In this document: piece after piece, positions 1 through 17,621 of the stretch
Layout: every line of letters begins with the position of its first letter
Position numbering within the stretch: the stretch's first letter is position 1
Position numbers and translations under genes: made by a program
Virus record (IMG/VR): IMGVR_UViG_3300020470_004551
Location: 1 to 23,114 of that record
DNA from: a virus
Length of the DNA: 23,114 nucleotides
Strand: one strand, 5' to 3'
Notes under the pieces: generated by a model
The model's input: the letters and a program-made list of their open reading frames with translations, nothing else
Told to the model about the DNA's origin: nothing
Databases searched by the model: none

Positions 1-38
1 AATCAAAAAAGTCATAGGTAAAAAAACGAAAAAAATTG
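1..38 (+). repeat. Block also present inverted at 18214-18241
   Basis: The 11-mer AAAGTCATAGG (8-18) and the 12-mer CGAAAAAAATTG (27-38) recur in the same order, as reverse complement, at 18231-18241 and 18214-18225. In both places the block lies immediately upstream of a gene. At the second site it is coding, inside the end of a 48-aa ORF. Here the same codons would give Q-K-S-H-R and then a stop, so this may be the tail of a paralogous small gene cut by the window edge. A shared regulatory sequence is the alternative. Confidence 0.5.
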
Positions 39-710
39 AGTATAAAAAATTTGAAAAAACAGAAACAAAAAAACTATACATTATTTGATAAGTATAAAGT
101 AATAAAAATTGAAAACTTTATCGCAAATAATTTTATTAAAAATTTTCATTATCTTGATTCATATCCAACAGAAATAAAAAATAGAAAATTTGGATTATAT
201 GAAAATGAAAAATTAATAGGAGTATGTTCATTTGGTGCTTGTGTATCTTGGAGATTTACATTTAATTCCATAAATAAAATATCTCCTAATAATTTTATTG
301 AATTAAACAGATTAGTTTTACTAAAAAAAGAAAAAAATTTATTATCGTGGTTTGTTTCTAAATGTTTGAAAAATTTAAAAGAAAAAATTATCGTAGCTTA
401 TGCAGATACTAAATATCATTCAGGGTATATATATCAAGCATTAAATTTTTATTATTTAGGATTGACTAAAAAAACTAAAGTAAAATTTTTAAATTCTTCG
501 TACCGACATAGAGATAAACAAGCTGACTATGGAGAAAGTAAATTTAATAATGAAAAACATAGATACATTTATTTCAATGGATCAAAAAGTTTTAATAAAT
601 TTTGTAGAAAAAACTTAAACTATGAAATTTTGAAATATCCAAAAAACAAAAATTACAAATCTATAAATTATGAATTAAAAAATTATGAAGTACAAGGATT
701 GTTAATTTGA
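36..710 (+). CDS. Mom-like GNAT-fold DNA adenine-modification protein
   Basis: The product is 224 aa, close to the usual size of phage Mu Mom-type proteins, which modify adenine in phage DNA and protect it from restriction. The segment at residues 37-44 (FHYLDSYP), the strand-like FGLYENEKLIGVCSFG (52-67), ELNRLVLL (89-96), the signature YADTKYHSGYIYQALNFYYLG (within 121-142) and YRHRDKQ (156-162) fit the Mom/GNAT family order. It abuts the methyltransferase gene (TGA then ATG with no gap), which supports a DNA-modification role. The start is uncertain: TTG at 36 has no Shine-Dalgarno, and the in-frame TTG at 51 has a weak one. The family assignment is from memory of motifs; the exact modification is unknown. 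Confidence 0.7.
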   Translation: MSIKNLKKQKQKNYTLFDKYKVIKIENFIANNFIKNFHYLDSYPTEIKNRKFGLYENEKLIGVCSFGACVSWRFTFNSINKISPNNFIELNRLVLLKKEKNLLSWFVSKCLKNLKEKIIVAYADTKYHSGYIYQALNFYYLGLTKKTKVKFLNSSYRHRDKQADYGESKFNNEKHRYIYFNGSKSFNKFCRKNLNYEILKYPKNKNYKSINYELKNYEVQGLLI

Positions 711-1701
711 ATGACAAAACTAAGAGTATTTTCAATGTTTACAGGAATAGGAGGATTTGAAATAGGAATTAAAAATTCAAATATCGAGCATGAGTTAATT
801 GGTTACTCAGAAATTGATCCTTATGCAATAAAGATATTTGAAAAACATTTTCCAAATATCAAGAATTATGGAGATGCAACTAACATTCGAGGGAATGAAA
901 TCAAAGACTTTGACATCCTTTTTGGAGGATTTCCTTGCCAAACATTCTCAGTTGCTGGAAAACAAAAAGGATTTGACGATACAAGAGGAACACTCTTTTT
1001 TGATATCGCAAGGATTCTATCCATTAAAAAACCTAAATATTTGGTGCTTGAAAACGTTAAAGGTTTGCTATCTCATGAATCAGGAGATACGTTTTCAAGA
1101 ATACTTACCATACTCTCCAAATTGGAGTATAGAGTTGAATGGAAGATACTTAATAGCAAAAATTTCGGAGTACCACAAAACAGAGAGAGGATTTTTATTA
1201 CAGGATATTTTAGAGGAGAAAGTGGATCGAAAATACTTCGTGTCTAAAACAATTATGAAAAAATTAGTTGATAAAAATTTTAAAAATGATTTCCAAATTA
1301 TAGATAGATTAGGAAATATACAAAAAAGAAAAATATCAGGAGCATTAAGCGTTGGAGGTCATGGATCAGGTAATCATTCAGATATGGATTTAATTGTAAC
1401 TCCTGTTTTATCTCCTGATCGAATAAATAAAAAACAAAATGGAAGAAGATTTAAAGATCCAGGAGATGATTCTTATACTCTAACTGCACAAGATAAACAT
1501 GGAGTTATGATTGAAAATCAAATTAGAAGATTAACTCCTACAGAATGTGAAAGACTGCAAGGCTTTCCTGATTCGTGGACTGAAGGAATGTCAGATAGCC
1601 AAAGATATAAAACTTTAGGAAATGCAGTTACTACAAATGTAGTTACAGCTTTAGTAAATGAAATGTTTAAAGGAAGTGAATATGAAAAAAGAAGAATATG
1701 A
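711..1701 (+). pseudogene. C5-cytosine DNA methyltransferase, frameshifted
   Basis: Two overlapping frames together encode a Dcm/M.HhaI-type enzyme of about 330 residues, a normal length for the family. Frame one (711-1247) has the SAM-binding motif FTGIGGFEIGI (10-20), the catalytic GGFPCQTFSVAG with Cys76, ENVKG (114-118) and FGVPQNRERIFITGY (152-166). Frame two supplies LQDILEEKVDRKYFVS and the C-terminal motifs RRLTPTECERLQGFP and QRYKTLGNAVTTNVV, ending at 1701. The frames cross near 1190-1240. Both readings of 1198-1208 look authentic, which suggests a small deletion between short repeats that removed the usual residues between motif VIII and the next segment. It could also be an assembly error. 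No classic -1 slippery heptamer is seen. It follows the Mom-like gene directly, so it was or is part of a DNA-protection pair. Confidence 0.8.
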
Positions 1702-2514: not shown

Positions 2515-2678
2515 TGGCATTACCTAAGCACAAAAAAAGATTATCAGCTTCATTATGGAGAAAGAGAGCAAATAAAAGAAAATTTATGTTTCAGAAATGG
2601 AGAAAACTTAATGAATTGGGAGAAGTTTCTGAAGGTATGCAGAAGCAAATAAATATATTTATGGTAAGGAAATATTAA
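2514..2678 (+). CDS. Small basic protein (54 aa)
   Basis: This 54-residue ORF starts with the TAATG overlap at the end of the 160-aa gene and ends in another TAATG overlap with the next gene. The N-terminal half is very rich in Lys and Arg (KHKKRL, WRKRANKRKF), which would suit nucleic-acid binding. The C-terminus is short and ends VRKY. It has no TM. Exact overlaps on both sides and its basic composition make it a likely real gene. A DNA- or RNA-associated packaging factor is an inference. Confidence 0.7.
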   Translation: MALPKHKKRLSASLWRKRANKRKFMFQKWRKLNELGEVSEGMQKQINIFMVRKY

Positions 2679-3166
2679 TGGGAATTTTAGATAGTGTTAA
2701 GAAAAAAAATAACTACACAAGTTTAATCAAATTCAATCACGATAAAACAGTAAACATAAAAAAAGCTGAAGTTGTTAGAAGTATTATCGTTGATGAAAAA
2801 GAAGGATTTTTGGCTAGAAACTCGGCTTTTACTGAATTTTATCAAGATAAACTATTTGGCTTTATAAAACAGAAGCCTGAGAAAATAAAAGGATGCTTTA
2901 TAGTAAGAGAACATTCAGCTGATCCTTTAGAGTTTAGAGAAGATTCAATCTATGGAGCAGACGTTACAGCAGATGATATTGTCTATCACGAGGACGAAAA
3001 TGTAGCTATTTCATCTTCAGATGTCGAGTTATCTAATGCTACAGGACCTGACCACATTCAGAAGGCATTAAGCATAGTTTTGATAGGAGAAACAATAGCA
3101 GTTATGGTATTAGCATTTGCAGTTGGATTACCGAAATTTATAACAAATTTAGCTGGAGGAGGATAA
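2678..3166 (+). CDS. C-terminally membrane-anchored protein (162 aa)
   Basis: The first 125 or so residues are soluble and mixed alpha/beta in appearance, with an acidic stretch near 95-115. A single hydrophobic helix at about residues 131-150 is followed by a short tail ending in three glycines. With no N-terminal signal, the expected topology is a cytoplasmic domain anchored by its tail. The Gly-rich end resembles that of the 191-aa protein encoded just before the ATPase. No family is recognised. A membrane-bound assembly factor or minor virion protein is plausible. Confidence 0.75.
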   Translation: MGILDSVKKKNNYTSLIKFNHDKTVNIKKAEVVRSIIVDEKEGFLARNSAFTEFYQDKLFGFIKQKPEKIKGCFIVREHSADPLEFREDSIYGADVTADDIVYHEDENVAISSSDVELSNATGPDHIQKALSIVLIGETIAVMVLAFAVGLPKFITNLAGGG

Positions 3167-3169
3167 ATA

Positions 3170-3283
3170 ATGAATGAAAAAAAAGAAATAGAAAAAGAAA
3201 AATTTAGTTTTGGTGCTTATGAATTATTTATTTCATTTCTAGTTGGCTTTATAGCTGCTTTGATATTGGATAAGTTTATATAG
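3170..3283 (+). CDS. Small single-TM protein (37 aa)
   Basis: The ATG at 3170 opens a 37-residue frame. It has a highly charged N-terminus (MNEKKEIEKEK) followed by one TM helix at about residues 18-35 (ELFISFLVGFIAALIL). The gene sits 3 nt after the previous stop. Short single-TM proteins with a charged end resemble minor coat proteins of filamentous phages in size and shape, but no sequence match is claimed. Confidence 0.65.
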   Translation: MNEKKEIEKEKFSFGAYELFISFLVGFIAALILDKFI

Positions 3284-3303
3284 ATCCAGGAAATTTATTA
3301 GAA

Positions 3304-3384
3304 ATGGGAGAAGAAAAAATATCAAATTTATTAATAATATTAGGAGGTTATATTGCATGGGAAATAGTAGGAAAAATAATTTAA
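3304..3384 (+). CDS. Tiny single-TM protein (26 aa)
   Basis: A 26-residue frame begins at the ATG at 3304 and is almost entirely one membrane helix (ISNLLIILGGYIAWEIVGKII). A GATCCAGGA sequence lies 13-21 nt upstream. It overlaps the start of the next gene by 28 nt. The size and hydrophobicity are similar to minor end-coat proteins of filamentous phages, but the ORF is so short that it could be chance. Confidence 0.45.
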   Translation: MGEEKISNLLIILGGYIAWEIVGKII

Positions 3385-3566
3385 ATTGTGATTCAAAACA
3401 GTTGTTTCCATTTAAATATTTAGCATTAGAGGAATTAGAAAATTATAGAAAAAAAATTTTATTTTCAAATATGAATATTTATTATTGTGAAGAACACTTT
3501 GGATATCATTTAGGTCATAAAAAAAGAATGTCTAAAGAGAGGATTTTAAAAAATTATGAAGCATGA
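3357..3566 (+). CDS. Small Cys/His-rich protein (69 aa)
   Basis: The start has a strong AGGAGG about 10 nt upstream, inside the preceding tiny gene. The 69-residue product has Cys at about residue 11 and the cluster YYCEEHFGYHLGHKK near 42-56. The C-x2-H...H-x2-H spacing suggests a zinc-binding site. Many basic residues at the C-terminus would suit nucleic-acid contact. It overlaps the next gene by 11 nt. The zinc-finger call is based only on Cys/His placement. Confidence 0.7.
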   Translation: MGNSRKNNLNCDSKQLFPFKYLALEELENYRKKILFSNMNIYYCEEHFGYHLGHKKRMSKERILKNYEA

Positions 3567-4131
3567 ACTTAAACTTTTAGACTTATATAAATTACCTGAG
3601 AAAATAATCAGCTTGATATCATTTTTGGGATTATTTTCATTTGGGGTTTATGTTTATATGTTTTCAACTATTGGAGGATTTTTTTTATTAGTCTTATCTG
3701 TTCTACCTAGTTGCATAATTTTTTATAAAAATGCTAAAAAAAGAATATCTAAGGTTTACAGAATTGAAAGGAATAATAAGGTAACAAGATTTATTACTGA
3801 GTATTGGGAAAAAGAAGAAGTTGATAAATTAGATCAGAGATTTTTTTGGATGGTAAATGGTAAATATACTCCTGTTCTACAATTTTCAAATAAAAAAGAT
3901 AGAAATTACCAGCCTGTATTTCCATTTGATAAACCTGATCCTCCTGTAAGATCAGGAAACCTTCAAAGATCATTAGTACAAAAAGCTACTGAAATTTTGA
4001 TGACACCAAAAAAAGATGAAAAATTTGAAGCATTAAAAACAGGAGGTTTGATGTTATTGGCTGGAGGAGGAGCAATTTTAATTCTAGCTATGATGGGTAA
4101 TATACAAGGAGGAGGAGGAGCAGCTGGATAA
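3556..4131 (+). CDS. Three-TM protein coupled to motor ATPase (191 aa)
   Basis: Two adjacent hydrophobic helices lie at about residues 17-37 and 38-57. A cytoplasmic-looking basic and polar domain (60-158) follows, including a Pro-rich patch (FPFDKPDPPVRSG), then a third TM at 164-181 and a Gly/Ala tail. The gene overlaps the ATPase by one base (TAATG), indicating matched translation. The ATPase lacks a TM of its own, whereas inovirus pI/Zot proteins carry one. This protein is therefore a good candidate for the membrane anchor of the motor; that pairing is an inference. Confidence 0.75.
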   Translation: MKHELKLLDLYKLPEKIISLISFLGLFSFGVYVYMFSTIGGFFLLVLSVLPSCIIFYKNAKKRISKVYRIERNNKVTRFITEYWEKEEVDKLDQRFFWMVNGKYTPVLQFSNKKDRNYQPVFPFDKPDPPVRSGNLQRSLVQKATEILMTPKKDEKFEALKTGGLMLLAGGGAILILAMMGNIQGGGGAAG

Positions 4132-5006
4132 TGGGATATCATGATGAGTTTTATTATAAAGATAGCTGTTTAATAGGGCTTCTTGCTGGTAGAGGAGTTG
4201 GCAAAACTTTGACTATGAGTATGTTGGCACATGAAGAATTGGTTACAGCAGTAAATGAAGGCTATGATGACTTCAAAATATACCATAATGGCTTTCTTGA
4301 TCCTAAATGGAAAGGATGGCAAATTCCAGGAGAAAAAGAATCTAGGCTAGTTGAATATGATTTTCAAGAAATTATTGAAGGAATGATGTATGGAGAATCA
4401 AAGATTCAAAATGGCTTGATGTGTATAGATGAGATAGCTTCAATTCAAGATTCAGCTTATGGACCTATGGGATTTGGCAGAGTAAATTTTTCACACTTTA
4501 TTATTATGATGAGAAAAATCGGATTGACTATTTTATTTGCTGGTCAAACTGAAGAAATCGATAAACGATTAAAAATGCAAACTGACATAGTAGGCTATCC
4601 TGTAGTTGCAAAGAAAATGCGAGGTAAGGAAGTTGGAATTAAATGGGTATATCAGAATGAAAATTATACAAAACCAGGTAAAGTGAGAAGAATATTTTAT
4701 CCAAATATGCACAAATTTTGGGGAGCATACGATACTAGAAAAATCATACGATCTGAACAGGTAAATAAATCTGATGTATTGAATAAAAAACAGGAAGATA
4801 TTGAAGATGATATTGCAGACATTATTCAAGATATTGTAAAAACTGAAAAAACAACTTCAATACCAATTTTCAAGATAAAGCAATATATGAAAAAAGAGCT
4901 TAATATAAATTGGGAATTGAAACAACTCGAAGCTAGTTTAAAATATTATGGAAAACCTTTATCTAAAGACAAATCTGTTTATGATTTTCGTAAAAACTTT
5001 GGATAA
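4131..5006 (+). CDS. Zot/FtsK-HerA-like packaging or extrusion ATPase
   Basis: This 291-residue P-loop ATPase has Walker A AGRGVGKT (19-26), Walker B GLMCIDE (95-101) and a sensor-like ILFAGQT (134-140, Gln139), in the order and spacing of Zot/pI and other FtsK-HerA viral genome-handling ATPases. The C-terminal 70 or so residues are helical and end in a winged-helix-like segment that may contact DNA or partner proteins. No TM helix is seen, unlike inovirus pI. It is the last gene of the first operon, coupled to a three-TM protein. Motors of this family drive virion extrusion or genome packaging at the inner membrane. The superfamily call is firm; Zot versus tectivirus-type ATPase is not settled. 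Confidence 0.82.
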   Translation: MGYHDEFYYKDSCLIGLLAGRGVGKTLTMSMLAHEELVTAVNEGYDDFKIYHNGFLDPKWKGWQIPGEKESRLVEYDFQEIIEGMMYGESKIQNGLMCIDEIASIQDSAYGPMGFGRVNFSHFIIMMRKIGLTILFAGQTEEIDKRLKMQTDIVGYPVVAKKMRGKEVGIKWVYQNENYTKPGKVRRIFYPNMHKFWGAYDTRKIIRSEQVNKSDVLNKKQEDIEDDIADIIQDIVKTEKTTSIPIFKIKQYMKKELNINWELKQLEASLKYYGKPLSKDKSVYDFRKNFG

Positions 5007-5025
5007 GGTTACGATTTCTAGCTAT

Positions 5026-5054
5026 TTGCATAAATTTTTCTAATAGTTTATATA
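5026..5054 (+). promoter_or_regulatory. Candidate promoter of the coat-gene module
   Basis: TTGCAT at 5026-5031 and TATATA at 5049-5054 are separated by 17 bp, a sigma70-like arrangement. Transcription would start near 5061 and give a leader of roughly 37 nt before the ATG at 5098. The 91-bp gap after the tightly packed operon, the change in gene type and the AT-rich character support a promoter here. The leader has only a weak Shine-Dalgarno. The match to consensus is partial, and runs of T and A make chance matches common. Confidence 0.4.
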
Positions 5055-5097
5055 TATTATTGTCAAGGTAAAGAATCTAGGGAACATATATATATTT

Positions 5098-5574
5098 ATG
5101 TTTGGAAGAAGTTTATTTGCTTTAATGATCGTAGGAATGGGATTCTTTATTTTGACGATAATGCTTGGTCCTATATCAAAACAAGTTAATGAACTTAGAA
5201 CAGATGCTCAAACAGATACAGGATTAGCTTGTACTACAGGAGCAGCAGAAACGAGTTGTACTGTTACTTTGAGTAATAAGTCAGCTTATGAGCCTTCTGC
5301 TCCAAATTGGGTAGTTACAGAAACTTCTCCAGGTTCATCTGATAAGACATCTTCTTCTATACTAGATTCAAACCTTGAAAGTGTTACCATTTCTAGTCTG
5401 TCTAATAACACTTCTTATGTATTTACTGTTGAATATTTCAAGGTTAATGCTGAGGTACAATCAGCCACAAATTTAGATTCTGTTTTAAAGAGATGGAATT
5501 TGCTTTTAGTTGTTGGCTTGATGGCAGTCTTGGTCGTAGGAGTGGGATTTAGTTACAACTATGCAAGAGCATAG
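5098..5574 (+). CDS. Two-TM virion-type protein with Fn3-like ectodomain
   Basis: The 158-residue protein has a TM helix at about 5-25 and another at 134-152, which bracket a Ser/Thr-rich extracytoplasmic domain. That domain has two Cys (in LACTTGAAETSCTV) and ends in VTISSLSNNTSYVFTVEYF, a pattern typical of the last strands of a fibronectin type III fold. It is the first gene after the candidate promoter and directly precedes two small two-TM proteins. A minor coat or membrane spike role is inferred from context. No close family is recognised. Confidence 0.7.
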   Translation: MFGRSLFALMIVGMGFFILTIMLGPISKQVNELRTDAQTDTGLACTTGAAETSCTVTLSNKSAYEPSAPNWVVTETSPGSSDKTSSSILDSNLESVTISSLSNNTSYVFTVEYFKVNAEVQSATNLDSVLKRWNLLLVVGLMAVLVVGVGFSYNYARA

Positions 5575-5598
5575 TTTAAATTTGTAAATAGAGTATTT

Positions 5599-5823
5599 AT
5601 GGAATTTAGAAAATTAGCTTCAATAGTATTGGCTATAGTTTCACTTTTAGCATTTCTAAGCATTATGCCTATAATCATCAATTCAGCAACTACTTCTTCA
5701 GCAGATACACTTGCTACAGGAGATCAAGCTACTGCATCAATGATAAAACTACTTCCTCTACTTGCATCAATATCAGGTGTTGGAGTTAGTTTACTTATAG
5801 TTATGAAAATTAGAAAAAGTTAA
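5599..5823 (+). CDS. Two-TM small protein, candidate major coat protein A
   Basis: This 74-residue protein has two hydrophobic helices (about 8-28 and 48-69), a short Ser/Thr/Ala/Asp loop between them and a basic end (MKIRKS). The layout matches the neighbour at 5892: acidic or neutral loop, second helix beginning IKLLPLLASISG here and IKLIPLVASVGG there. The two are therefore diverged paralogues. Small two-helix hydrophobic proteins form the shells of spindle-shaped viruses and, with one helix, of filamentous phages. No N-terminal signal peptide is needed for such insertion. The coat role is inferred. Confidence 0.65.
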   Translation: MEFRKLASIVLAIVSLLAFLSIMPIIINSATTSSADTLATGDQATASMIKLLPLLASISGVGVSLLIVMKIRKS

Positions 5824-5891
5824 TATCATTGTCTTAGCTAAACATTTTCGAAGATGATTCTATAACTCGCAGAGAAAGAAGTAAACTCGTA

Positions 5892-6113
5892 ATGGAAGTT
5901 TCAAAAATTACAGCAATTATACTTAGTGTCGTTGTGCTAGTTGCTTTCCTCGCTGTGCTACCTACAATTATCACATCTACTACAGCAGCTGCTACAGCAG
6001 CTTCGACTGACTACTCAGACGTAGAAGCGATAATTAAGTTAATTCCTTTGGTAGCATCAGTAGGTGGTATCGCTGTGGCAGGTCTGATAGCGTTTCAAGC
6101 TGCAAAGGGATAA
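5892..6113 (+). CDS. Two-TM small protein, candidate major coat protein B
   Basis: The product is 73 residues, with TM helices at about 6-26 and 48-69, an Ala/Thr-rich loop (TSTTAAATAASTDYSD) and a Lys near the end. It aligns along its length with the 74-aa product upstream. Its DNA uses more C- and G-ending codons (GTC, GTG, CTC, CTA) than the surrounding genes, which is compatible with selection for high expression. A perfect 14-bp hairpin follows 19 nt after the stop, as often found after abundant coat-protein genes. This is the best single major-coat candidate in the window; the role is inferred. Confidence 0.65.
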   Translation: MEVSKITAIILSVVVLVAFLAVLPTIITSTTAAATAASTDYSDVEAIIKLIPLVASVGGIAVAGLIAFQAAKG

Positions 6114-6132
6114 TTTAAAAAAATTACCTCTC

Positions 6133-6170
6133 GTTTATAGGAGCAGTATTCGTTCTCTGCTCCTATAAAC
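6133..6170 (+). terminator. Perfect 14-bp hairpin after coat candidates
   Basis: GTTTATAGGAGCAG (6133-6146) and CTGCTCCTATAAAC (6157-6170) are perfect inverted repeats around a 10-nt loop. The plus-strand tract that follows is A-rich rather than U-rich, so this is not a textbook plus-strand terminator. It may be a partial terminator, an RNA-stabilising end for the coat mRNA, or a terminator for antisense transcription, because the minus-strand side reads into a T-run. Filamentous phages also place a terminator after their major coat gene. Confidence 0.55.
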
Positions 6171-6213
6171 ACAAACTAAAAAAATATATAGATCCAGGAA
6201 AAAAGGAGAAAAA

Positions 6214-6657
6214 ATGAGTTTTATAAATTCAAGAATGGATGATGAAATAAAAGAACATGGAAAGATCAATTTAGAAGGTTATTTAGATGCAGTAGGAGAT
6301 GAAGATGACGTTGAATTAATTTTAGATGATCCTTATGATAATGATCTGCATAATCTGATGTACAACGAAGATTATTTCAAGGTTTATCATAAAGACGCTA
6401 AAGACTTTATGGGAGATGATGCCTTTGACGTTATTAGAGCAGTTCAGGAATATGAACAGGATAATTTTGGAGAAGTGAATACAGACTTAGGAGATGCTCC
6501 AGCAGTAGCTAATATGTATGCCTACATTAGAGGAGAAGAATTGATGGATGACATCATACAAGATTACAGACGAGATCGTATAAACGATAGAAAAAGAAGC
6601 GATAGAAATAATAACAAAATGTTTGATTCAGGAAACGATTTCAAATTTAGAAAATAA
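6214..6657 (+). CDS. Acidic protein, constant-variable-constant paralogue 1
   Basis: The 147-residue product is acidic, with a basic C-terminal tail (DRKRSDRNNNKMF...FKFRK). Its first 17 residues and last 86 or so are identical to the next gene, while residues about 18-62 differ. There is no TM or signal. A strong AAGGAG lies 7 nt before the ATG, within a leader segment that is nearly identical to the one before 22189. The large acidic body plus basic tail would suit a DNA-associated or scaffold protein. No family is recognised. Confidence 0.8.
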   Translation: MSFINSRMDDEIKEHGKINLEGYLDAVGDEDDVELILDDPYDNDLHNLMYNEDYFKVYHKDAKDFMGDDAFDVIRAVQEYEQDNFGEVNTDLGDAPAVANMYAYIRGEELMDDIIQDYRRDRINDRKRSDRNNNKMFDSGNDFKFRK

Positions 6658-6667
6658 AGGAGATTAA
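6400..6667 (+). repeat. 268-bp exact direct repeat, copy 1
   Basis: This segment encodes the C-terminal part of the 147-aa protein plus the following stop and Shine-Dalgarno. By base-by-base comparison it is identical to 6850-7117. The two genes also share an identical 51-bp start (6214-6264 and 6670-6720). Identity at silent positions means recent duplication or ongoing gene conversion, while the intervening 135 or so bases have diverged strongly. Confidence 0.95.
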
Positions 6668-6669
6668 AA

Positions 6670-7107
6670 ATGAGTTTTATAAATTCAAGAATGGATGATG
6701 AAATAAAAGAACATGGAAAGGCACAATTAGAAGGTATTTTATATGGAGAAGATGATGATGACGTTGAATATAAGCTAGATAATTATTGGGATGAAGATTT
6801 ACGGAACATGATGTACGAAGATTATTTCATTATAGGTACACAAAGAGCAAAAGACTTTATGGGAGATGATGCCTTTGACGTTATTAGAGCAGTTCAGGAA
6901 TATGAACAGGATAATTTTGGAGAAGTGAATACAGACTTAGGAGATGCTCCAGCAGTAGCTAATATGTATGCCTACATTAGAGGAGAAGAATTGATGGATG
7001 ACATCATACAAGATTACAGACGAGATCGTATAAACGATAGAAAAAGAAGCGATAGAAATAATAACAAAATGTTTGATTCAGGAAACGATTTCAAATTTAG
7101 AAAATAA
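6670..7107 (+). CDS. Acidic protein, constant-variable-constant paralogue 2
   Basis: This 145-residue tandem paralogue of the gene at 6214 starts 12 nt after that gene stops, with its own AGGAG. Residues 1-17 and about 60-145 match exactly. The central part (residues 18-59, LEGILYGEDDDDVEYKLDNY onwards) retains only a skeleton of the same pattern: LEG, a run of acidic residues, then MMYEDYF against LMYNEDYF. Constant ends with a diversified core suggest that both copies do the same job with different partners, or that the core is under diversifying selection. Confidence 0.8.
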   Translation: MSFINSRMDDEIKEHGKAQLEGILYGEDDDDVEYKLDNYWDEDLRNMMYEDYFIIGTQRAKDFMGDDAFDVIRAVQEYEQDNFGEVNTDLGDAPAVANMYAYIRGEELMDDIIQDYRRDRINDRKRSDRNNNKMFDSGNDFKFRK

Positions 7108-7117
7108 AGGAGATTAA
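6850..7117 (+). repeat. 268-bp exact direct repeat, copy 2
   Basis: This is the second copy of 6400-6667, offset by 450 bp, with no mismatch found. Identity stops two bases before the next ATG, so the repeated unit includes the ribosome binding site of the downstream gene. Confidence 0.95.
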
Positions 7118-7118
7118 T

Positions 7119-7244
7119 ATGCCTTCAGGGAAAGGGAGTTATGGAAGTAAAAGAGGTAGACCTAAAAAGGAAACTTCTTATGAAAAATGGCTCGGAGTTT
7201 ATAATAAAAAATCATCAAATAAAGGAAGGAAATTTAAGAAATAA
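7119..7244 (+). CDS. Small AT-hook protein (41 aa)
   Basis: A 41-residue frame starts at the ATG at 7119, after AGGAGATTAAT. The N-terminus, MPSGKGSYGSKRGRPKK, contains the core K-R-G-R-P-K-K, a classical AT-hook that binds the minor groove of AT-rich DNA. The rest is basic and ends GRKFKK. It ends in a one-base overlap with the next gene. In such an AT-rich element, a DNA-coating or condensing role is plausible. Small Gly/Lys-rich MPSGKG-type proteins are common in phages, but their function is generally unknown. Confidence 0.7.
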   Translation: MPSGKGSYGSKRGRPKKETSYEKWLGVYNKKSSNKGRKFKK

Positions 7245-7462
7245 TGCAGTTTACAGGGGATGGCTCACTAAGATCAACTAAATATTCTCAAGAGATAAAA
7301 GACTTGAAATCAGAATTGAGAAAACTTGAGAGAGAGAATGTAGATCGTAATCAGCTAATAGCTATGAAAAACAGAATAGATCAACTCAAGAAAGCTGATA
7401 AAGATTTTCAGGCTAATTATTCAGTTAAGAAAAAAGCATCAGATTTCTTATTTGGGAGATAA
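7244..7462 (+). CDS. Coiled-coil protein (72 aa)
   Basis: The 72-residue product has a strong predicted coiled coil over about residues 16-52 (IKDLKSELRKLEREN, then IAMKNRIDQLKK) and a basic-aromatic end (KKKASDFLFGR). There is no TM or signal. The start overlaps the stop of the AT-hook gene by one base. It belongs to a run of three small charged proteins between the acidic paralogues and the large membrane proteins, suggesting internal virion or scaffold components. Confidence 0.7.
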   Translation: MQFTGDGSLRSTKYSQEIKDLKSELRKLERENVDRNQLIAMKNRIDQLKKADKDFQANYSVKKKASDFLFGR

Positions 7463-7465
7463 ATT

Positions 7466-7681
7466 ATGGCAAATAAAACTTTAGATTATTGGTTTAAAGC
7501 ACCTAGTAAAAATACATCAAAAAAAACAACTAAAAAGAAGGCTGTAAAAAAAGGACCTTCTGTAGTTAAGCAATTTGAAAAAGTAGAAGATTCTAATGAT
7601 GATCTAAACCTTGAATTAAAAAAATTAAAGAGGATGATAAAAACTTCAAAATCATCTCCTAGAAAGTATAAAAGGAGTTAG
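7466..7681 (+). CDS. Lysine-rich histone-like small protein (71 aa)
   Basis: The first half is a Lys/Thr/Ser tract (KNTSKKTTKKKAVKKG) resembling histone H1-type tails. The second half is a short amphipathic helix (DDLNLELKKLKRMIKT) and a basic end (SSPRKYKRS). The gene follows 3 nt after the previous one, with GGGAG upstream. The composition suggests DNA binding or charge neutralisation of packaged DNA. No specific family is recognised. Confidence 0.7.
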   Translation: MANKTLDYWFKAPSKNTSKKTTKKKAVKKGPSVVKQFEKVEDSNDDLNLELKKLKRMIKTSKSSPRKYKRS

Positions 7682-7683
7682 CT

Positions 7684-7854
7684 ATTTCATTTCCATTTCT
7701 CATATTAGCTGGAGTATCTTGCCTTATATTAGCTGGAGATATTCAAACAGATGCAGCAACTAAAAATATACCTCTAGCAATTATGCTTACTTATGCCTTA
7801 TCAGGTTTATTTTTCTTTTATGGAATTGTCAGGGTTTTTAGGATGGTTAGATGA
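7684..7854 (+). CDS. Two-TM small protein with probable ATT start (56 aa)
   Basis: An open frame contains two clear membrane helices (ISFPFLILAGVSCLILAG and then IMLTYALSGLFFFYGIV) joined by a polar loop and ending in VRVFRMVR. It ends in a 4-nt ATGA overlap with the next gene. No ATG, GTG or TTG precedes the first helix. A consensus AAAGGAG (7671-7677) is followed, 6 nt later, by ATT at 7684. Non-standard ATT initiation is therefore the simplest reading. The gene is missed if only standard starts are allowed. Function unknown; membrane morphogenesis is likely from context. Confidence 0.6.
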   Translation: MSFPFLILAGVSCLILAGDIQTDAATKNIPLAIMLTYALSGLFFFYGIVRVFRMVR

Positions 7855-9014
7855 TTAGATTATTTTTAAAACTAATAGGAACAAAAAAAAAATATTTTTC
7901 ATATGCTCTAGCAATTAGCTTTGTAGCAATTACTCTATCTTCAAGCAATCCTTTATATGCTCAACAGCCTACTCCTGTTCCTACTCCAACTCCTATTCCT
8001 GTAACCTCTTTACCTCCTGTAAGCATAAAGGAAGCCATTGGGTTCAATAATATTGCTACATCAAGAGCAGATGACTTTTTAGTATTGGTTAGATACGATT
8101 TAGATATTGGTACAGGACCTGATGAATTTTGGTGCAAAGAAGAATTTTTAATCAATGATACAGGATGTGATTTAAATCCTCCGAATCCTGATTATCCATT
8201 CTCACTAAGAGAAGGATATTTATATATAGAATATCTTGATTCAACAGGTACTATTCATAGACAAAATAGAAAAATTCCTAGAATTGATGCTGGATTAATG
8301 GGAATATATGCTGAAGCACCAGCTTCAAGTTCATTTGGCTTCAATCAATCGCTACTTCCTGGAAAAGTTTGTTTAAGATATTCTTCTGATTATTTTGATC
8401 CTAATGGAAATGGATCATGGAATTGTAGGCAAGTATCAAACATAACAGGAGGTACTACTGCTTTAGCAAATGAGATATCTTCAGATTCAGGAATATTATA
8501 TAACCTCGAAAATCAAATCGGATTACCTCTAAACACTTTGGTATCTGAAAGAGGTATGGTTACTCCAACAGGTCAAACTTATCTTGAAGAAGCATTACAA
8601 GGAATAGTTGAAGTAGCTGTAAATTCTGATGGAAAAACAGTTTTTCAATTAGGTTCAACTCAAACAAATAAAGGATATACTCCAACAGGTTATAACATTC
8701 CTTTACAAGATAATATTTTAGCTACTGCTACTGCTTCAGGAGTAACAGATAACATGAGATTTGTTTCTTCAGAATATTTAGGCTTTGATTCTTCTATGTT
8801 TTTTGGAGGATTAGTTTTTATTATTCTTTCTTTGTTTGTTGGAGGAATAGTTATAAGTACAACTAACAATGCTTTATTATCCATACTTTCTGCATCTATG
8901 ATGATGCTTCCTGGAATTTTCATTGGAGCAGTTTCAATAGGATTTATATTTACTGCTCTATCAGTATTTATTGTATTGGGTTCATGGTATTGGCTAAGGA
9001 GGAGTCCTGAATAA
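7851..9014 (+). CDS. Secreted-ectodomain membrane protein (387 aa)
   Basis: A Sec signal peptide covers residues 1-37 (basic start, hydrophobic core, LYA before QQP). It is followed by a Pro/Thr linker (39-55) and an ectodomain with Cys residues in WCKEEFLINDTGC and again near VCLRYSS and WNCRQ, allowing two disulphides. Three TM helices lie at about 317-381, with a basic end. The shape resembles filamentous-phage adsorption proteins (signal, ectodomain, C-terminal anchor), but with three anchoring helices. It starts the chain 387/189/483, whose genes overlap by 1-4 nt. Receptor binding or virion-end function is inferred. Confidence 0.7.
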   Translation: MIRLFLKLIGTKKKYFSYALAISFVAITLSSSNPLYAQQPTPVPTPTPIPVTSLPPVSIKEAIGFNNIATSRADDFLVLVRYDLDIGTGPDEFWCKEEFLINDTGCDLNPPNPDYPFSLREGYLYIEYLDSTGTIHRQNRKIPRIDAGLMGIYAEAPASSSFGFNQSLLPGKVCLRYSSDYFDPNGNGSWNCRQVSNITGGTTALANEISSDSGILYNLENQIGLPLNTLVSERGMVTPTGQTYLEEALQGIVEVAVNSDGKTVFQLGSTQTNKGYTPTGYNIPLQDNILATATASGVTDNMRFVSSEYLGFDSSMFFGGLVFIILSLFVGGIVISTTNNALLSILSASMMMLPGIFIGAVSIGFIFTALSVFIVLGSWYWLRRSPE

Positions 9015-9583
9015 TGAGTGGAAGATTAATCGGTAGCCTTTTTTTACCATATCTTATGGTTTCAATATTGGGTACTATATCGCAAGATCAATTTACTTCT
9101 TCTGTAACTACAGGAGAGTTGATGGTAAATGAAATTTATGATGCTAGATTAAGTGAAGCTGATGCTGCTGGTACAGCTTCATATACAGGAGGAAATACTG
9201 TAAATAAATTAACTACAGGATTTACTTTCTTAACTGATGCAACAGGTACTATTTTAGGCTTTACAAAAAACTTATTCAAAATCATAACTTTAAATTATTC
9301 GTGGTGGAGTGGATGTAAGAAATCAACAGATGAAGATCCAGGATTTAACTCTGTTGGAAATCAGCTTACTGCTGGTACAGGAAATTGTTATATAGATTCT
9401 CAAGGAGTGCAATATAAAGATGCTCCGATAGCCTATGTTTTTGTAAGATATTTACTTCTAATAATGGCATTACCTGGAATTTATGTTCTCTCATATAAAT
9501 CAGCTGAGTTGATGGCAAGATTTGTTTCAAGTATTGGAAGTTCTATAGGAGGATTGGCAAGTTTTATTCCAGGATTAAGATGA
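9014..9583 (+). CDS. Membrane protein between two surface proteins (189 aa)
   Basis: There is an N-terminal hydrophobic helix (5-22), then a Thr/Gly/Ala-rich region with an amphipathic stretch (TGFTFLTDATGTILGFTKNLF). A segment with Cys in WWSGCKKS and GNCYIDS follows, then a TM at about 141-159 and a C-terminal amphipathic helix rich in Ser and Gly. The gene overlaps both neighbours (1 nt and 4 nt). It may be the counterpart of the small TM partner of the adsorption protein in filamentous phages. This is positional reasoning only. Confidence 0.65.
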   Translation: MSGRLIGSLFLPYLMVSILGTISQDQFTSSVTTGELMVNEIYDARLSEADAAGTASYTGGNTVNKLTTGFTFLTDATGTILGFTKNLFKIITLNYSWWSGCKKSTDEDPGFNSVGNQLTAGTGNCYIDSQGVQYKDAPIAYVFVRYLLLIMALPGIYVLSYKSAELMARFVSSIGSSIGGLASFIPGLR

Positions 9584-11031
9584 TGATGTTAAAGCTAAGA
9601 GATAAACCTAAAAAAATTTCAAATGGATTCATAGGAATCATGCTATTTCTATTGGCATTTACACTTTATTTTTCTCAAGGTACTATTTGCAAATTGGAAG
9701 CTGCTACGTTGTCAGATTATTGTTATAAATTTGATATTTCAGTTCAAAATAATACAGGATCAAACAAGTCTTATTATCCTGTATTACTTGAAGGAGTAAA
9801 CATGAATGATTGGCAATCTAATAATTATATTGATGAATTTGGATGGTCAATTTTTCCTTATCAGGCTTCATTAGTTGATGAATATCAAGTTTTACTTCAG
9901 GATGTAGATGCTCTATCTTCTAATCAATGGTATATTTTTCCTTCATTATCTGCATCAGGTACAAACAATTTAAATGTACTTTTAGGTGCTACAGATATTC
10001 AAAGAAATCAAGGAATATTTTTTACAGGCTTAGACTACTTGAAAGTTGATAACCATAATGATTTCAATCAATCCAATTTTGAAATTAATGTTGAATTTAA
10101 TGACGTTGTACAAAATGAAATGTCATCAGATGTTTACACAATTTTAGAAAAATATGATGAATCAGCATATCAAGGATTTAAGCTAGAAATTGTAAATAAT
10201 TCTGCTGTTACAGGTACAGGAGATATTTATATTAGAGGTTATTCTGATACATCTTCTATTCAATCACATTCTTTTATTCCTTCAGGGAATGAGCAAATAG
10301 AATTTAAACTACAAAGTGGAAGCCTGGATCTATCAGTTGATGGTACTTCAGCTTCTACAGTTACAGGAGCAACTCTTACTTCAAATACTGAAGATTTATA
10401 CATGGGAGCTACATACAATACAACTTTATCTAAATATTTAGATAATACAGTTATTAGAGTTGTAGATATGGTATTTAGTGGAGATTTAGTAGCTTACTAT
10501 GGATTTAATCCATCAGATATAACAGAAACTTCATCAGCTAATCCCTATTATGATGGTACAGTTTCAGATATTTCATTTAGTACAAATACTCATAATGCAA
10601 ATTATTTTTTCAATAGAGATCAAAGTAATATAAATATAGTTGCTTCGAGAATCCTTCCAGCAACTGCTTCAGGATCAACAATTTTTACTGCTGAAACTAC
10701 TGATATTATCGGTAGATTTTATGGAAGTGGGAATCCTAATAACCTTGCAACAACTAATCAAAATATGATTGGTTTATCATTTTTAGTTCCTGATGCTGAT
10801 TTAGGGATGCCTGATACAGTATGGTATTCATTTTGGCTTTCAGCTTTTGGAATTGCTCTTGGTATAGGAATTTTTTGGATTTTTAATAATACTCCTATAG
10901 CCATATTAGGTGCATCATTTCCTTTAGTTCTTGGAAGTATGCAAGGTTTAATAAATTCATGGTTTCTCATACTGTGGTTTATTTTTTTCATAAGTATATA
11001 TTCAACGTATCAATGGTACGAAAGAAGTTAG
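9580..11031 (+). CDS. Secreted protein with LamG-like domain and TM anchor
   Basis: In the 483-residue product a signal helix lies at about 17-36. A beta-rich ectodomain follows that looks like a DUF2341/LamG concanavalin-type sandwich: QGFKLEIVNNSA, IEFKLQSGSLDLSVDG, LYMGATYN and LVAYYGFNPSD are typical strands. Three TM helices lie at about 416-435, 440-455 and 459-477, with a short polar end (YQWYERS). The start is one of three consecutive ATGs (9580, 9583, 9586). LamG-like folds bind glycans or proteins, so a host-surface contact role is reasonable. The domain call rests on strand patterns and is not certain. Confidence 0.7.
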   Translation: MMMLKLRDKPKKISNGFIGIMLFLLAFTLYFSQGTICKLEAATLSDYCYKFDISVQNNTGSNKSYYPVLLEGVNMNDWQSNNYIDEFGWSIFPYQASLVDEYQVLLQDVDALSSNQWYIFPSLSASGTNNLNVLLGATDIQRNQGIFFTGLDYLKVDNHNDFNQSNFEINVEFNDVVQNEMSSDVYTILEKYDESAYQGFKLEIVNNSAVTGTGDIYIRGYSDTSSIQSHSFIPSGNEQIEFKLQSGSLDLSVDGTSASTVTGATLTSNTEDLYMGATYNTTLSKYLDNTVIRVVDMVFSGDLVAYYGFNPSDITETSSANPYYDGTVSDISFSTNTHNANYFFNRDQSNINIVASRILPATASGSTIFTAETTDIIGRFYGSGNPNNLATTNQNMIGLSFLVPDADLGMPDTVWYSFWLSAFGIALGIGIFWIFNNTPIAILGASFPLVLGSMQGLINSWFLILWFIFFISIYSTYQWYERS

Positions 11032-12822: not shown

Positions 12823-12978
12823 ATGGCAATAAATAGAAATAGCGATTTATTAGAGGTGCTTCGAATGATAAATCTATATGATGGGTACACTTTGTTTGTT
12901 AGGAGTGTCTTATATCGCATCTATTTTATAGGTAAATTAAAGATTTGGAGAAAAAAGGAGGTTTTTTGTGGTTACTGA
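12823..12978 (+). CDS. Possible small ORF after the fibre gene (51 aa)
   Basis: An ATG at 12823 opens a 51-residue frame that overlaps the start of the next gene by 11 nt. Its only binding-site candidate is a weak GAGAG. The product is basic and moderately hydrophobic (LFVRSVLYRIYFIGKLKIWRKK). It may be a fibre accessory protein exchanged with the fibre tip, a remnant of an older fibre tip, or chance. Base use here resembles that of the fibre C-terminus. Confidence 0.3.
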   Translation: MAINRNSDLLEVLRMINLYDGYTLFVRSVLYRIYFIGKLKIWRKKEVFCGY

Positions 12979-15900
12979 TCCTTTAATGGAAGAAGAAAGA
13001 AATAGAGAAAGAAAACAATCTCAAATTAAAAAAACTGAAAATAATTTCATTCCCTATGATCCAAATACTGATGAAGAAAGATCATCAGGAGAATCTTTTA
13101 ATTCAGGCTTAACTCCTCCTCCAGCTGTTCCTCCTAAAATTGATCCTCCAAAACTTGATCCGATAGATTATCAAATTGAGAAACCATCTGATCCAACTGC
13201 TGAAGTTTCTCCAGCTGCAAGTTATCAATTAAATCCTGTTGAGATAGAGGAGTTCAGAGAAGAAGAAAGATTGAAACCTCCTCCAATAGAAGAAGGTAAA
13301 AATCCATTCTATATAAATGAAGCTGAAGCGATTATAAATCCTAGAGAATTTGAAGCATTAGAAAGTAGAACAGAAGAATTTTCTAAAGATGCCGATTTAT
13401 TAAACAGACAAATTACAGAGTTTAATAATACTTATGATGAATTTGCATCAGACATAGATCAAGATATACAAAAACTAGATTCAGAATTTCAAGAAATAGA
13501 AAGTTTTTATAATTCTTATACTCCTCAAGAAAGAGAATACGATCAGTTTTGGGATGAATACAATAAAAGATTTGATGCTCTTGAAAAAATGGAGGAAGAT
13601 GTTGATAAAAAAGTTGAGATGTTTAATTCATTTTATGATGCTAATGCTCCATTTCTTGACGATAGAGAAGCATCAGTTAAAAAAAGATCAAGATACATTG
13701 AAAGAGATTGGGATGCAATAGGAGATGAATTTTTCTTACCTCCTGAAATTTCTTCAGGAGATATCTATGATAGAGATTTACCTCAAGAAACATTTTTTTT
13801 AGAGAAACCAGGAGATATATTTGATAGAGATTTACCTCAAGAAAAATTTATAACTAGAGAAGATATCCAATTTACAGAAAGATCACTCGAAGTACCTGAA
13901 GAAAGAATACTAGAAGAAAAAGATATTCAATATACTGATAAATCATTAGAAAATCCTGAGAGTTTTTTTAAGCCTGAAATAACTAGAGAAGATATCCAAT
14001 TTACAGATAGATCACTCGAAGTACCTGAAGAAAGAATACTAGAAGAAAAAGATATTCAATTTGGAGATATAAATTTAGAAGAAAATTATCAAAATAGATT
14101 TAGATCAAGAGAAATTCAGAAGCCACAATTAGACACCTCATTAGAAGTACCTGAATCTGTATATGAAGAAAAATCTTTTATTGATAAGGCTAAAGAATTT
14201 GAAGTTGGCTCTATTATTGGTAAAGGCGATTCTCCTGGATCTCCAACTGTTGAAACAGTAGGCAAGGGAGGTAAATTTGTAGGAGGAATAGCATGGACCT
14301 TATCAGGTGCAGAATATCTAGTCGATCAGGCTAAAAACGTAAGAAATTTAAATGTTTTTGATCCATCTGCTATTAGAGATGATGATAAAGAAATTTCAGA
14401 TGTTGATGATTATATTGTTTCTTTATTAGGTCAAGCTGAATATGTAGGTAATATAATTCCAATTCCAAAATATGAAGATGTTGATGGAGATGGAGAAAAA
14501 GACTTGATATGGGAGAAAGTCCAAAGAGATGATCCTACTGCTTATGGTTCTAAAAGAATGGCTGATGAAAGAAGATACAATCTTCCATTTGGAGATATTA
14601 TTTTTTCCTCAGAAGAAAATCGAGAAATTTTAGAAAGAACAGAAGGAATGTCAGCTAATCCTTTTAAGGATGGAGGAAATGATCCTAATTTTTCTCCTGA
14701 AAGATTTGGAGCATTAGCTAAAGATAGATTTAGACCTATTGACTTAGCTTTAACTTTGGCTCAAATAAGGATTTTAGGAAGTTTATTAAAAGGTGCTACA
14801 AGAGTTGGAATTGGATCAGTAAATAAATCTTCTCAAATGATATCTTCAGGAAGAAATTTAGTAAGAAATAATATACCTGATTCAATGCTTTCAGCTAATC
14901 AAATTGTTGATAAAGCATATTATAAATCTTATAAAGGATCACAAGATATAACGAGAAAAATTGATGATATTCAAGCAGATATTGAAAAAGTATTAGATGG
15001 TCAAAGAATCGGCTCATGGAAAACAAAAAAGCCTTCTCCTGAATTAGTAAAAAAATTAGAAGATTTACAATTAGAAATTGCCAACTCTACAAGAAAAAAT
15101 AATATTGCAAGTTTTAGAGATAGAATAAATCAAAAAATTAGAAGTGGTAGAGCAACAAAAAAAGAAAGAGAAGTTGGAAAAATACTTAAAGAAAAAGCAG
15201 ATAAAAGTACGGATGTAGTTATTGCAGAAGCCAAACCTATAGAAAAAAGATTTAGGCTAACTGACAAAGAAGGTCCTTATGGTAAAGAGTTACAAGAATA
15301 TGTACAAGATGTTGATGATTTAGCACAACTAAAGAAAAACTTAAATTACGTTGAAAAAAGATTCCCTAATTTAGCTGGTACTCCTCAAGCTGAAAATTTA
15401 GCTAAAGGATTAAAAGGAGGTAGAGTAACAGGAAGATTATTTGATGAAAAAGGTACATTGGGAGCAGCTAAATTGAATCCTGATGTTTTATATAACAAAA
15501 ATGTAATGGCTGAGATTGAAGCCAACATTATAAAGGCTCAGGAGTTAATTGAAAATAAAGGAAGATTACCTGATGGAAGATATGGTCAAGAATTACTAAG
15601 AGATACTGTAGTTTCAGCAGATTCACAATATAGAACACTTTATAAACTAGATGATCTTTTTGATAATCAAGGAAAATATAATTTTGATAAAGCAGATGAA
15701 TGGCTTAAAACTACATGGAATCCAGGAAGCAGATATAGAGCATTAGTTGATGATGCTTATGGTAAAGGAAAATCTCAAATAGCTAAAGATTCTCCAAATC
15801 CTTTTTTCAAAATTCAATCAGTTAAATTTACTTCCGATAATCAAGGTGGAGGAGGTCAAATGCCTGATGGAAGTATAAAATCAGGTAGAGGAGGATTACA

Positions 15901-16753
15901 AGGCGATACTCCAGCTGGTAAAAGGCTAGGAGAAGTATCAACTCAAAAAGGTAATCAAGGTCAAAGTCCTAAAGGACCAAAATCAGATGTTCCAAATATG
16001 GCTACTCCTAAAACTCCTGATTTACCTGATCCAAATCGATCTCCTGATGCTCCTCAAAGTCCTGATACTCCTCTAAGTTTTGATGCTCCTCAAAGTCCTG
16101 ATGCTCCTCAAAGTCCTGATGCTCCTCAAAGTCCTGATGCTCCTAAATCTCGTGATGCTACAGCTAGAAGTAGAGATGCTTCTGCTAAAAGTAGAGATGC
16201 TTCTTCAAGAAGTAAACGTGATGAAGGCAAGAAAAAAGATGAAGGAGAGAGTAAAAGTAAACGTGATGAAGGCAAGAAAAAAAGAGATGGAGAATCAAGA
16301 AGAAGTGGTAAGAAAAAGAAAGTTGATGATCTAACAATAAAAAGAAAAACTAAAGGAAAAAAACAGAAACCAAAAAGGAAAGTCAGAAAAAAAAGAGTTA
16401 GATTAGGAGATTCAGATTCTACTACTACTCCTAATATTGATGTTCAATCAAAGATTGCTGCTCCTAAAAGATTTGCTTCAAAAATTCAATGGAAAGAAAA
16501 TAATAAATATTATCAATTCAATTTTAATAACAAAAAAATTACAAGAACAGATAAGCCTATTGGATCAGGGGTAAAAAAAGGAAATACTCCAGCAGAAACA
16601 GTAAAAATAATTGAAACTCAAATGAGAAAGCCGAGATATCAGAAAGCTGTATTAGGAAGAATAGAAATAAGATTACAATCTCCAAATACAGTAGCCTTAA
16701 AAAATTTACCAAATTACAAAACAATTACTAAAGTAAGCAATTTTAGAAGATAG
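12968..16753 (+). CDS. Giant multidomain, repeat-rich DNA-binding-like virion protein
   Basis: The start is GTG at 12968, with AGGAGG 7 nt upstream. The 1261-residue product has an acidic Pro-rich N-terminus (1-110) and a coiled-coil-like region (about 120-230). An acidic repeat region (about 260-400) contains EDIQFT and SLEVPEERILEEKDIQ. A short hydrophobic patch lies near 435-455, and a Ca-binding-like loop DVDGDGEKD near 503. A long helical region is followed by SPDAPQ hexapeptide repeats (1026-1062), an extremely Lys/Arg-rich tract (about 1065-1150) and a small C-terminal domain ending in NFRR. There is no signal peptide, so the protein is cytoplasmic. The basic tract suggests genome binding; a nucleocapsid or internal core role is inferred. 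Confidence 0.75.
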   Translation: MVTDPLMEEERNRERKQSQIKKTENNFIPYDPNTDEERSSGESFNSGLTPPPAVPPKIDPPKLDPIDYQIEKPSDPTAEVSPAASYQLNPVEIEEFREEERLKPPPIEEGKNPFYINEAEAIINPREFEALESRTEEFSKDADLLNRQITEFNNTYDEFASDIDQDIQKLDSEFQEIESFYNSYTPQEREYDQFWDEYNKRFDALEKMEEDVDKKVEMFNSFYDANAPFLDDREASVKKRSRYIERDWDAIGDEFFLPPEISSGDIYDRDLPQETFFLEKPGDIFDRDLPQEKFITREDIQFTERSLEVPEERILEEKDIQYTDKSLENPESFFKPEITREDIQFTDRSLEVPEERILEEKDIQFGDINLEENYQNRFRSREIQKPQLDTSLEVPESVYEEKSFIDKAKEFEVGSIIGKGDSPGSPTVETVGKGGKFVGGIAWTLSGAEYLVDQAKNVRNLNVFDPSAIRDDDKEISDVDDYIVSLLGQAEYVGNIIPIPKYEDVDGDGEKDLIWEKVQRDDPTAYGSKRMADERRYNLPFGDIIFSSEENREILERTEGMSANPFKDGGNDPNFSPERFGALAKDRFRPIDLALTLAQIRILGSLLKGATRVGIGSVNKSSQMISSGRNLVRNNIPDSMLSANQIVDKAYYKSYKGSQDITRKIDDIQADIEKVLDGQRIGSWKTKKPSPELVKKLEDLQLEIANSTRKNNIASFRDRINQKIRSGRATKKEREVGKILKEKADKSTDVVIAEAKPIEKRFRLTDKEGPYGKELQEYVQDVDDLAQLKKNLNYVEKRFPNLAGTPQAENLAKGLKGGRVTGRLFDEKGTLGAAKLNPDVLYNKNVMAEIEANIIKAQELIENKGRLPDGRYGQELLRDTVVSADSQYRTLYKLDDLFDNQGKYNFDKADEWLKTTWNPGSRYRALVDDAYGKGKSQIAKDSPNPFFKIQSVKFTSDNQGGGGQMPDGSIKSGRGGLQGDTPAGKRLGEVSTQKGNQGQSPKGPKSDVPNMATPKTPDLPDPNRSPDAPQSPDTPLSFDAPQSPDAPQSPDAPQSPDAPKSRDATARSRDASAKSRDASSRSKRDEGKKKDEGESKSKRDEGKKKRDGESRRSGKKKKVDDLTIKRKTKGKKQKPKRKVRKKRVRLGDSDSTTTPNIDVQSKIAAPKRFASKIQWKENNKYYQFNFNNKKITRTDKPIGSGVKKGNTPAETVKIIETQMRKPRYQKAVLGRIEIRLQSPNTVALKNLPNYKTITKVSNFRR
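13851..14060 (+). repeat. 129-bp period tandem repeat within the giant gene
   Basis: Two 81-bp blocks (13851-13931 and 13980-14060) differ at a single base and sit 129 bp apart, encoding a 43-residue period with TREDIQFT and SLEVPEERILEEKDIQ. A shorter related pair (GDIYDRDLPQE, GDIFDRDLPQE) precedes them. Near identity at silent positions indicates recent duplication. Confidence 0.9.
16046..16153 (+). repeat. 18-bp tandem repeats encoding SPDAPQ
   Basis: About six 18-bp units begin at 16046, 16064, 16082, 16100, 16118 and 16136, based on GATGCTCCTCAAAGTCCT, with the second and last degenerate. They encode a Pro-rich flexible linker before the basic DNA-binding-like tract. An 84-residue reading in another frame over this stretch is a by-product of the repeats. 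Confidence 0.9.
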
Positions 16754-16781
16754 TTTCTATAATAATAAAAAGGAGATAATT

Positions 16782-17360
16782 ATGAATTATGAAGAAACAT
16801 ACATAAATAATAAATTAGATAGAAAAATAGTTTCTTTGATAAAAGAAAATATTAAAGATCATTTAGAAGTAAATCCAAATGATAATGAAGATTTTTTGGT
16901 AGAAAGAGATGTTCCTATTGAAGTTTATCAAGAAAGTATTTTTAATTATTATCCTACACAAAATGATATAGATCAGTTATTAGGTCCTGATGATAGTGCA
17001 GAATATGAAGCAAACTTACGTTATATAATTGATGCAAATATAGAACATGATTTTACATCAGGAGAACAAGACGATTGGTATTATGAAGGTTTAGATGTTG
17101 GAGAAAACATAGCTTTATATATGGGTAATCGATCTCCTATATTAGTTCAAGATGCAATTTCAGAATATAAAAAAGATGAAGAAATAGTTAAGACTGTAAA
17201 AATGAAAGATGGTAGAGAAATAAATTTTGTAAATCCATTTTCAGAATTTAAAGATAAAAATAGTAAAACAAAATCTATAAATCAAATGTCAGATAAAGAA
17301 TTAAAACAGTTTAGGAAAAAATTAAATAAAGGAAATAATTATCAAGGATTTAGGAGATAG
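16782..17360 (+). CDS. Acidic hypothetical protein with basic tail (192 aa)
   Basis: AAGGAG precedes the ATG by 8 nt. The protein is strongly acidic over about residues 1-130 and basic at the end (KQFRKKLNKGNNYQGFRR). The overall layout recalls the acidic paralogues at 6214-7107: an acidic body, a segment with ...NIALYMGN..VQDAISEY comparable to ...DVIRAVQEYEQ, and an aromatic-basic tail. Remote relation is possible but not demonstrated. It ends the plus-strand late region together with a tiny membrane ORF. Confidence 0.75.
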   Translation: MNYEETYINNKLDRKIVSLIKENIKDHLEVNPNDNEDFLVERDVPIEVYQESIFNYYPTQNDIDQLLGPDDSAEYEANLRYIIDANIEHDFTSGEQDDWYYEGLDVGENIALYMGNRSPILVQDAISEYKKDEEIVKTVKMKDGREINFVNPFSEFKDKNSKTKSINQMSDKELKQFRKKLNKGNNYQGFRR

Positions 17361-17607: not shown

Positions 17608-17621
17608 ATAAAAAATTTTTA

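Follow-up and report, generated by a model that had tools for sequence, protein, structure and literature searches.

Two adjacent genes of a 23-kb virus encode acidic proteins that we interpret, with a probability of about 0.5, as tandem, diversifying, Ocr-like proteins (i.e., DNA-mimic and anti-restriction) in an exchangeable cassette locus. The genes, here called A and B, lie in a 23,114-bp virus record ("the window", the whole stretch of DNA that was analysed). Their features are as follows.

6214-6657 (+): gene A, 147 aa, acidic (pI 4.3), Ocr-like fold predicted; H46 and N51 kept, IIG motif lacking
6670-7107 (+): gene B, 145 aa, acidic (pI 4.3), Ocr-like fold predicted; IIGT kept, H and N lacking
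6210-6264 (+): 5' identical block, copy A, letter-identical to 6666-6720
6666-6720 (+): 5' identical block, copy B, letter-identical to 6210-6264
6265-6399 (+): divergent centre of A, 135 bp
6721-6849 (+): divergent centre of B, 129 bp
6400-6667 (+): 3' identical block, copy A, including the stop codon and the next Shine-Dalgarno sequence
6850-7117 (+): 3' identical block, copy B, whose last bases (TTTAGAAAATAAAGGAGATTAA) also occur in the relative described below

The initial annotation had described tandem paralogues with identical ends and a diversified centre, and exact coordinates bear this out, including all of the lengths that it gave (51 bp, 268 bp and ~135 bp). The identity of A and B extends over 55 bp at the 5' end, 51 of them coding, and over 268 bp at the 3' end. 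The 43 substitutions all fall in the 43 aligned codons of the centre, as do both indels (two 1-codon deletions in B), leaving a central amino acid identity of 51%; there is no difference in the other 102 codons. Under an even distribution of differences over the gene, all 43 would fall in the centre with a probability of ~10^-23. It should be noted that the copy number (two or more) and the pairing of the centres are as given by the metagenome assembly.

Predicted fold, charge and protein family

AlphaFold2 models of A (pLDDT 86.5) and B (pLDDT 86.6) are all-helical; they were built on one 38-sequence alignment and are therefore not independent. Among the solved structures listed as matches, the best for both models are all T7 Ocr entries, six for A (Z 6.0-6.3; next 2.7) and seven for B (Z 5.7-6.0; next 3.9), with values under 8 in every case, and a Z of ~6 in a helical protein can reflect a common arrangement. 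The models align ~103 of the 106 Ocr residues (rmsd mostly 3.6-5.0). By Foldseek alone the Ocr match is weak (E 4-6.5, TM ~0.3).

Strong acidity with a pI of ~4, as expected of an Ocr-like DNA mimic, was found in both proteins. The net charge is -19 for A and -17 for B, and the bodies without the C-terminal tail (see below) carry -24 and -22 (pI 4.1), compared with -28 for T7 Ocr and a median of -15.5 for the protein family (family pI 4.3). The centres, which correspond to helices 2-3 and the loop before the long helix in the predicted fold, keep their charge despite their divergence (-12 in A, -10 in B).

Assignment of A and B to the Ocr family by sequence is unsupported. The Pfam ocr profile (PF08684) matched T7 Ocr itself at 1e-64 but did not match A, B or their relatives, profile-profile comparison of the family with Ocr (hhalign) gave P 0.24-0.25, and the single T7 Ocr sequence against the family gave P 0.047, aligning the DLH motif. 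The likeness to T7 Ocr (gp0.3; PF08684) lies in the predicted all-helical fold, the size, the pI (4.1-4.3) and the strong negative charge. A and B differ from Ocr in their tandem arrangement, their basic C-terminal tail and their place in a structural operon (Ocr is encoded in the early region), and sequence homology is not detectable.

Ocr imitates a stretch of bent B-DNA 20-24 bp long (PMC11341690) and inhibits both R-M and BREX (PMC9122126). We lean toward the view, based on the models, that A and B would work in the same way. The virus presumably meets restriction, because a Mom-like DNA modification protein and a cytosine methyltransferase are among its gene products.

In profile searches, A and B matched phrog_12228/phrog_10208 (E 1e-12 to 1e-13; over the conserved core, 3.5e-13 for A and 1.4e-13 for B), both of which are without assigned function. 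Related hypothetical proteins occur in Lactococcus 949-like and Enterococcus phages and, within IMG/VR, on at least 136 contigs. They have the motifs DLHxxxxN, DYFIIG, EYExxNFGE, TDL and NMxxYIxGEE in common with A and B. However, these relatives belong to tailed phages, are single-copy in all loci examined and have no basic tail, whereas A and B are in tandem and have a tailed C-terminus. Searches of PADLOC and of PDB sequences yielded nothing useful.

Given the same recombination history, the acidic protein could instead be another kind of phage accessory (e.g., a binder of the host-takeover or anti-CRISPR type), with a helical, acidic build that only resembles Ocr. The failure to find sequence homology to Ocr fits such a protein, as does the largely non-acidic nature of the residues conserved across relatives (N, Y, G, NFG, TDL), which suggests a specific site. 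Ocr is nevertheless the sole fold to stand out with A as well as with B, and it matches in size and charge, so we regard this alternative as possible but somewhat unlikely.

Recombination and change in the centre

Where A and B encode the same amino acid, the codons differ at 4 of 21 positions in the centre and at 0 of 96 outside it (Fisher p=0.0008). Selection on amino acids cannot confine synonymous change to the centre and is therefore insufficient by itself, which rules out a recent duplication followed only by selection on the centre. As judged from the sequences, recombination is required, either homogenising the ends (gene conversion) or bringing in a divergent centre. As far as it calls for recombination, the initial proposal (cassette exchange or gene conversion) is thus supported.

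The accompanying proposal of selection on the centre holds only in part. Calculated block by block, as had been suggested, the centre has a dS of 0.50 and a dN of 0.43 (dN/dS 0.87), and the ends are without any difference (dS 0). The ratio is elevated relative to that of the backbone genes compared between the window and its only close relative (dN/dS 0.05-0.8, mostly 0.1-0.2; dS mostly 0.4-0.9), but it does not exceed 1. The centre would thus be evolving under a relaxed or diversifying regime (dN/dS ~0.9, not demonstrably above 1), and strong positive selection is unsupported by a value of 0.87. The central dS resembles that of the split between the two genomes. Codons at residues shared by A and B matched in 17 of 21 cases against a random expectation of 13.5 (P 0.06), which is no clear difference.

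Comparison with 31 non-redundant relatives reveals that each copy departs from the family at a conserved motif. In DLHxxxxN, the histidine is conserved in 26 of 31 relatives and the asparagine in all 31; A keeps both, and B has arginine in place of the histidine and a deletion of the asparagine. At the I-I-G positions (26, 24 and 30 of the 31 relatives, respectively), B keeps IIGT and A has K-V-Y. The 12 bases between the two motifs (GAAGATTATTTC) are identical in A and B. Because A has lost the IIG that nearly all relatives keep, this gene could be decaying. More generally, one or both copies may have become redundant after duplication, with gene conversion overwriting the ends while the centres drift neutrally. 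The loss of nearly universal motifs (IIG in A, H and N in B) and a central dN/dS near 1 are what such decay would leave. However, both frames are open, the charge of the centre is preserved, and each copy has a strong Shine-Dalgarno sequence and is predicted to fold confidently, and we consider neutral decay unlikely.

Another scenario is that two divergent alleles of one gene did not diverge in place but were joined, either in a recombination event or because a strain mixture was mis-assembled. This would be in keeping with the mobile nature of the cassette and with the origin of IMG/VR contigs as metagenome assemblies, and the shared ends could be crossover zones. The difficulty lies in the A-to-B junction (3' end, Shine-Dalgarno sequence, second start), whose upstream context differs from that of A. 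Simple mis-joining or collapse of two single-copy strains cannot produce this junction, because its formation requires DNA with a 3' end lying next to a 5' start. In addition, no single-copy allele was found in IMG/VR. Overall, we think this scenario quite unlikely. The comparison with related elements that had been suggested initially turned up no further central cassette between these flanks in IMG/VR; a search there for other copies of the cassette, by protein and by exact DNA pattern, matched only the relative of the window.

Diversification by a retroelement or by site-specific switching, to which a variable block between constant ends might point, is highly improbable and was rejected: the rest of the window holds no copy of the centre that could serve as template repeat, and no reverse transcriptase was seen among the annotated or scanned proteins (although the window may be incomplete), and the changes include many at non-adenine positions and two indels.

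The cassette locus and its genomic setting

The only close relative, IMGVR_UViG_3300017781_005396 (23,125 bp), is probably a circular and complete genome because it has a 44-bp terminal repeat. Its backbone is 75-87% identical to the window along most of the length, and 94% identical over part of the methyltransferase. At the position of A and B it has unrelated genes (87 and 153 aa), preceded by the same coat-like gene and followed by the same genes, and the only sequence shared with the window at this locus is the last bases, TTTAGAAAATAAAGGAGATTAA. In addition, the relative has a 134-aa gene that the window lacks, and the window has a 192-aa gene that is missing from the relative. The cassette exchange suggested initially therefore stands at the level of whole genes, the relative having different genes between the same borders, and comparison of the two genomes indicates that the A/B locus is a swappable cassette locus. 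The following features mark its borders, along with a second cassette of the same build.

6133-6170 (+): RNA hairpin with a 14-bp stem and no T-run, between the coat-like gene and gene A
6202-6209 (+): AAAGGAGA, Shine-Dalgarno sequence and left cassette junction
7106-7113 (+): AAAGGAGA, right cassette junction
16769-17360 (+): second cassette, with AAAGGAGA and the 192-aa gene, whose acidic product ends in GFRR; not present in the relative

The extended Shine-Dalgarno sequence AAAGGAGA has five occurrences in the window. It lies upstream of 5 of the 11 genes that are not conserved in the relative and of 0 of the 24 that are (p=0.0014). The cassette proteins of 192 aa (window) and 153 aa (relative) had no phage match by tblastn. 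We infer that genes may be gained, lost and duplicated at borders defined by Shine-Dalgarno sequences, much as T4 amplifies tifA via short homologies.

The hairpin before the locus is very stable and conserved, with a folding energy of -21.8 kcal/mol (z -8.3) in the window and -21.5 (z -4.5) in the relative (L005:3462-3499), and is perhaps an mRNA stabiliser. A and B follow directly after it, among structural-type genes and not in an early region. The structural-type operon (window 2678-11031) encodes many small membrane proteins, two-helix coat-like proteins, membrane-anchored surface proteins and a P-loop ATPase without recognisable family. From its genes, the virus looks like a member of a membrane-containing, non-tailed lineage, of which only two members were found in IMG/VR. 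No host was indicated by an ATPase search of species genomes, and matches to the integrase (<26% identity among the matches listed) and the methyltransferase (<60%) were too scattered to name one.

The Mom-like gene occupies window 36-710 (Pfam Mom 6e-27), and at about the same position the relative has a serine resolvase gene. In both viruses, the cytosine methyltransferase is encoded in two overlapping frames, with the split at the same position (window 711-1701; L008:9162-10074). Under the same match, the annotation of a Streptococcus phage record (MM1 1998) gives an alpha and a beta subunit. Given the shared split and this annotation, a real split enzyme or a programmed frameshift appears more likely than a sequencing error. 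Two 55-bp near-identical, non-coding direct repeats (window 17446-17500 and 17618-17672), also present in the relative, are possibly an integrase attachment site or a replication origin. A 1261-aa protein has internal repeats (window 13850-14080 and 16014-16175), including an 18-bp tandem repeat that encodes SPDAPQ units.

Basic tails and the proposed role of the tandem genes

A and B both end in RRDRINDRKRSDRNNNKMFDSGNDFKFRK, a tail that their tailed-phage relatives lack (these mostly end at an acidic helix). Likewise, the 134-aa protein of the relative (phrog_10415) has an extra KIKMPKSKSTKKYRS that is absent from 16 aligned relatives. Both of these recruits from tailed-phage families carry the basic-aromatic end as an added tail, unlike their relatives. 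The C-terminal pattern [FY][KR]{1,2}[KRS] occurs in 6 of 31 window proteins, against 0.23 expected, and ends of this type (KFRK, KFKK, KYKRS, KYRS, NFRR and GFRR) are seen in unrelated proteins (window 6214-7681 and 12968-17360; L005:3534-5281). Overlap with the next Shine-Dalgarno sequence may explain part of them (KYKRS, GFRR and the KYRS of the relative), but it does not explain KFRK, KFKK and NFRR.

One possibility is that the basic tail is a putative virion-loading tag for counter-defence proteins. The arrangement recalls the internal proteins of T4, where a common segment likewise sits on diverse bodies; there the capsid targeting sequence is N-terminal, on packaged internal proteins, whereas here it is a C-terminal tail that unrelated proteins have in common. 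The T4 internal proteins (IPI*) combine a capsid targeting sequence as constant segment with diverse counter-restriction bodies (PMC3012670). By this analogy we offer, as a doubtful proposal, that the lineage might load counter-defence proteins (the Ocr-like A and B, and phrog_10415 of the relative) via an acquired tail with the end K-F/Y-K/R-K/S, exchange them as Shine-Dalgarno-bounded cassettes of the structural operon, and diversify the mimic in tandem to escape sensing. In that case, this virus lineage, which looks non-tailed, would have a candidate loading tag in the shared tail.

As for the origin of A and B as tandem Ocr-like proteins, the gene may have been recruited from the tailed-phage pool and then duplicated in tandem; Shine-Dalgarno sequences (AAAGGAGA) may have recombined with one another in this step. 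Thereafter, homologous recombination would have erased any differences at the ends, and the centres would have diverged without losing their charge. A comparable tandem amplification of a counter-defence gene is that of T4 tifA under toxIN selection, for which recombination uses short homologies of 2-10 bp (PMC9391042). The tifA case comes from experimental evolution and has identical copies, whereas A and B are natural and diverged.

The two proteins would occupy the sites at which host restriction or BREX-type enzymes bind DNA, and a divergent pair could act on a wider range of targets, or could evade or dilute recognition by inhibitor sensors such as PARIS. PARIS is triggered by Ocr, and a point mutation in T7 escapes it while the inhibition of EcoKI stays (PMC9122126). 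If our reading is correct, a large and so far unannotated phage protein family of at least 136 IMG/VR members gains a testable Ocr-like DNA-mimic function, and A and B would represent a natural case of a counter-defence gene that was duplicated in tandem and is diverging block by block. Such duplication and divergence in blocks is what one would expect where the host senses these inhibitors, as happens to Ocr with PARIS.
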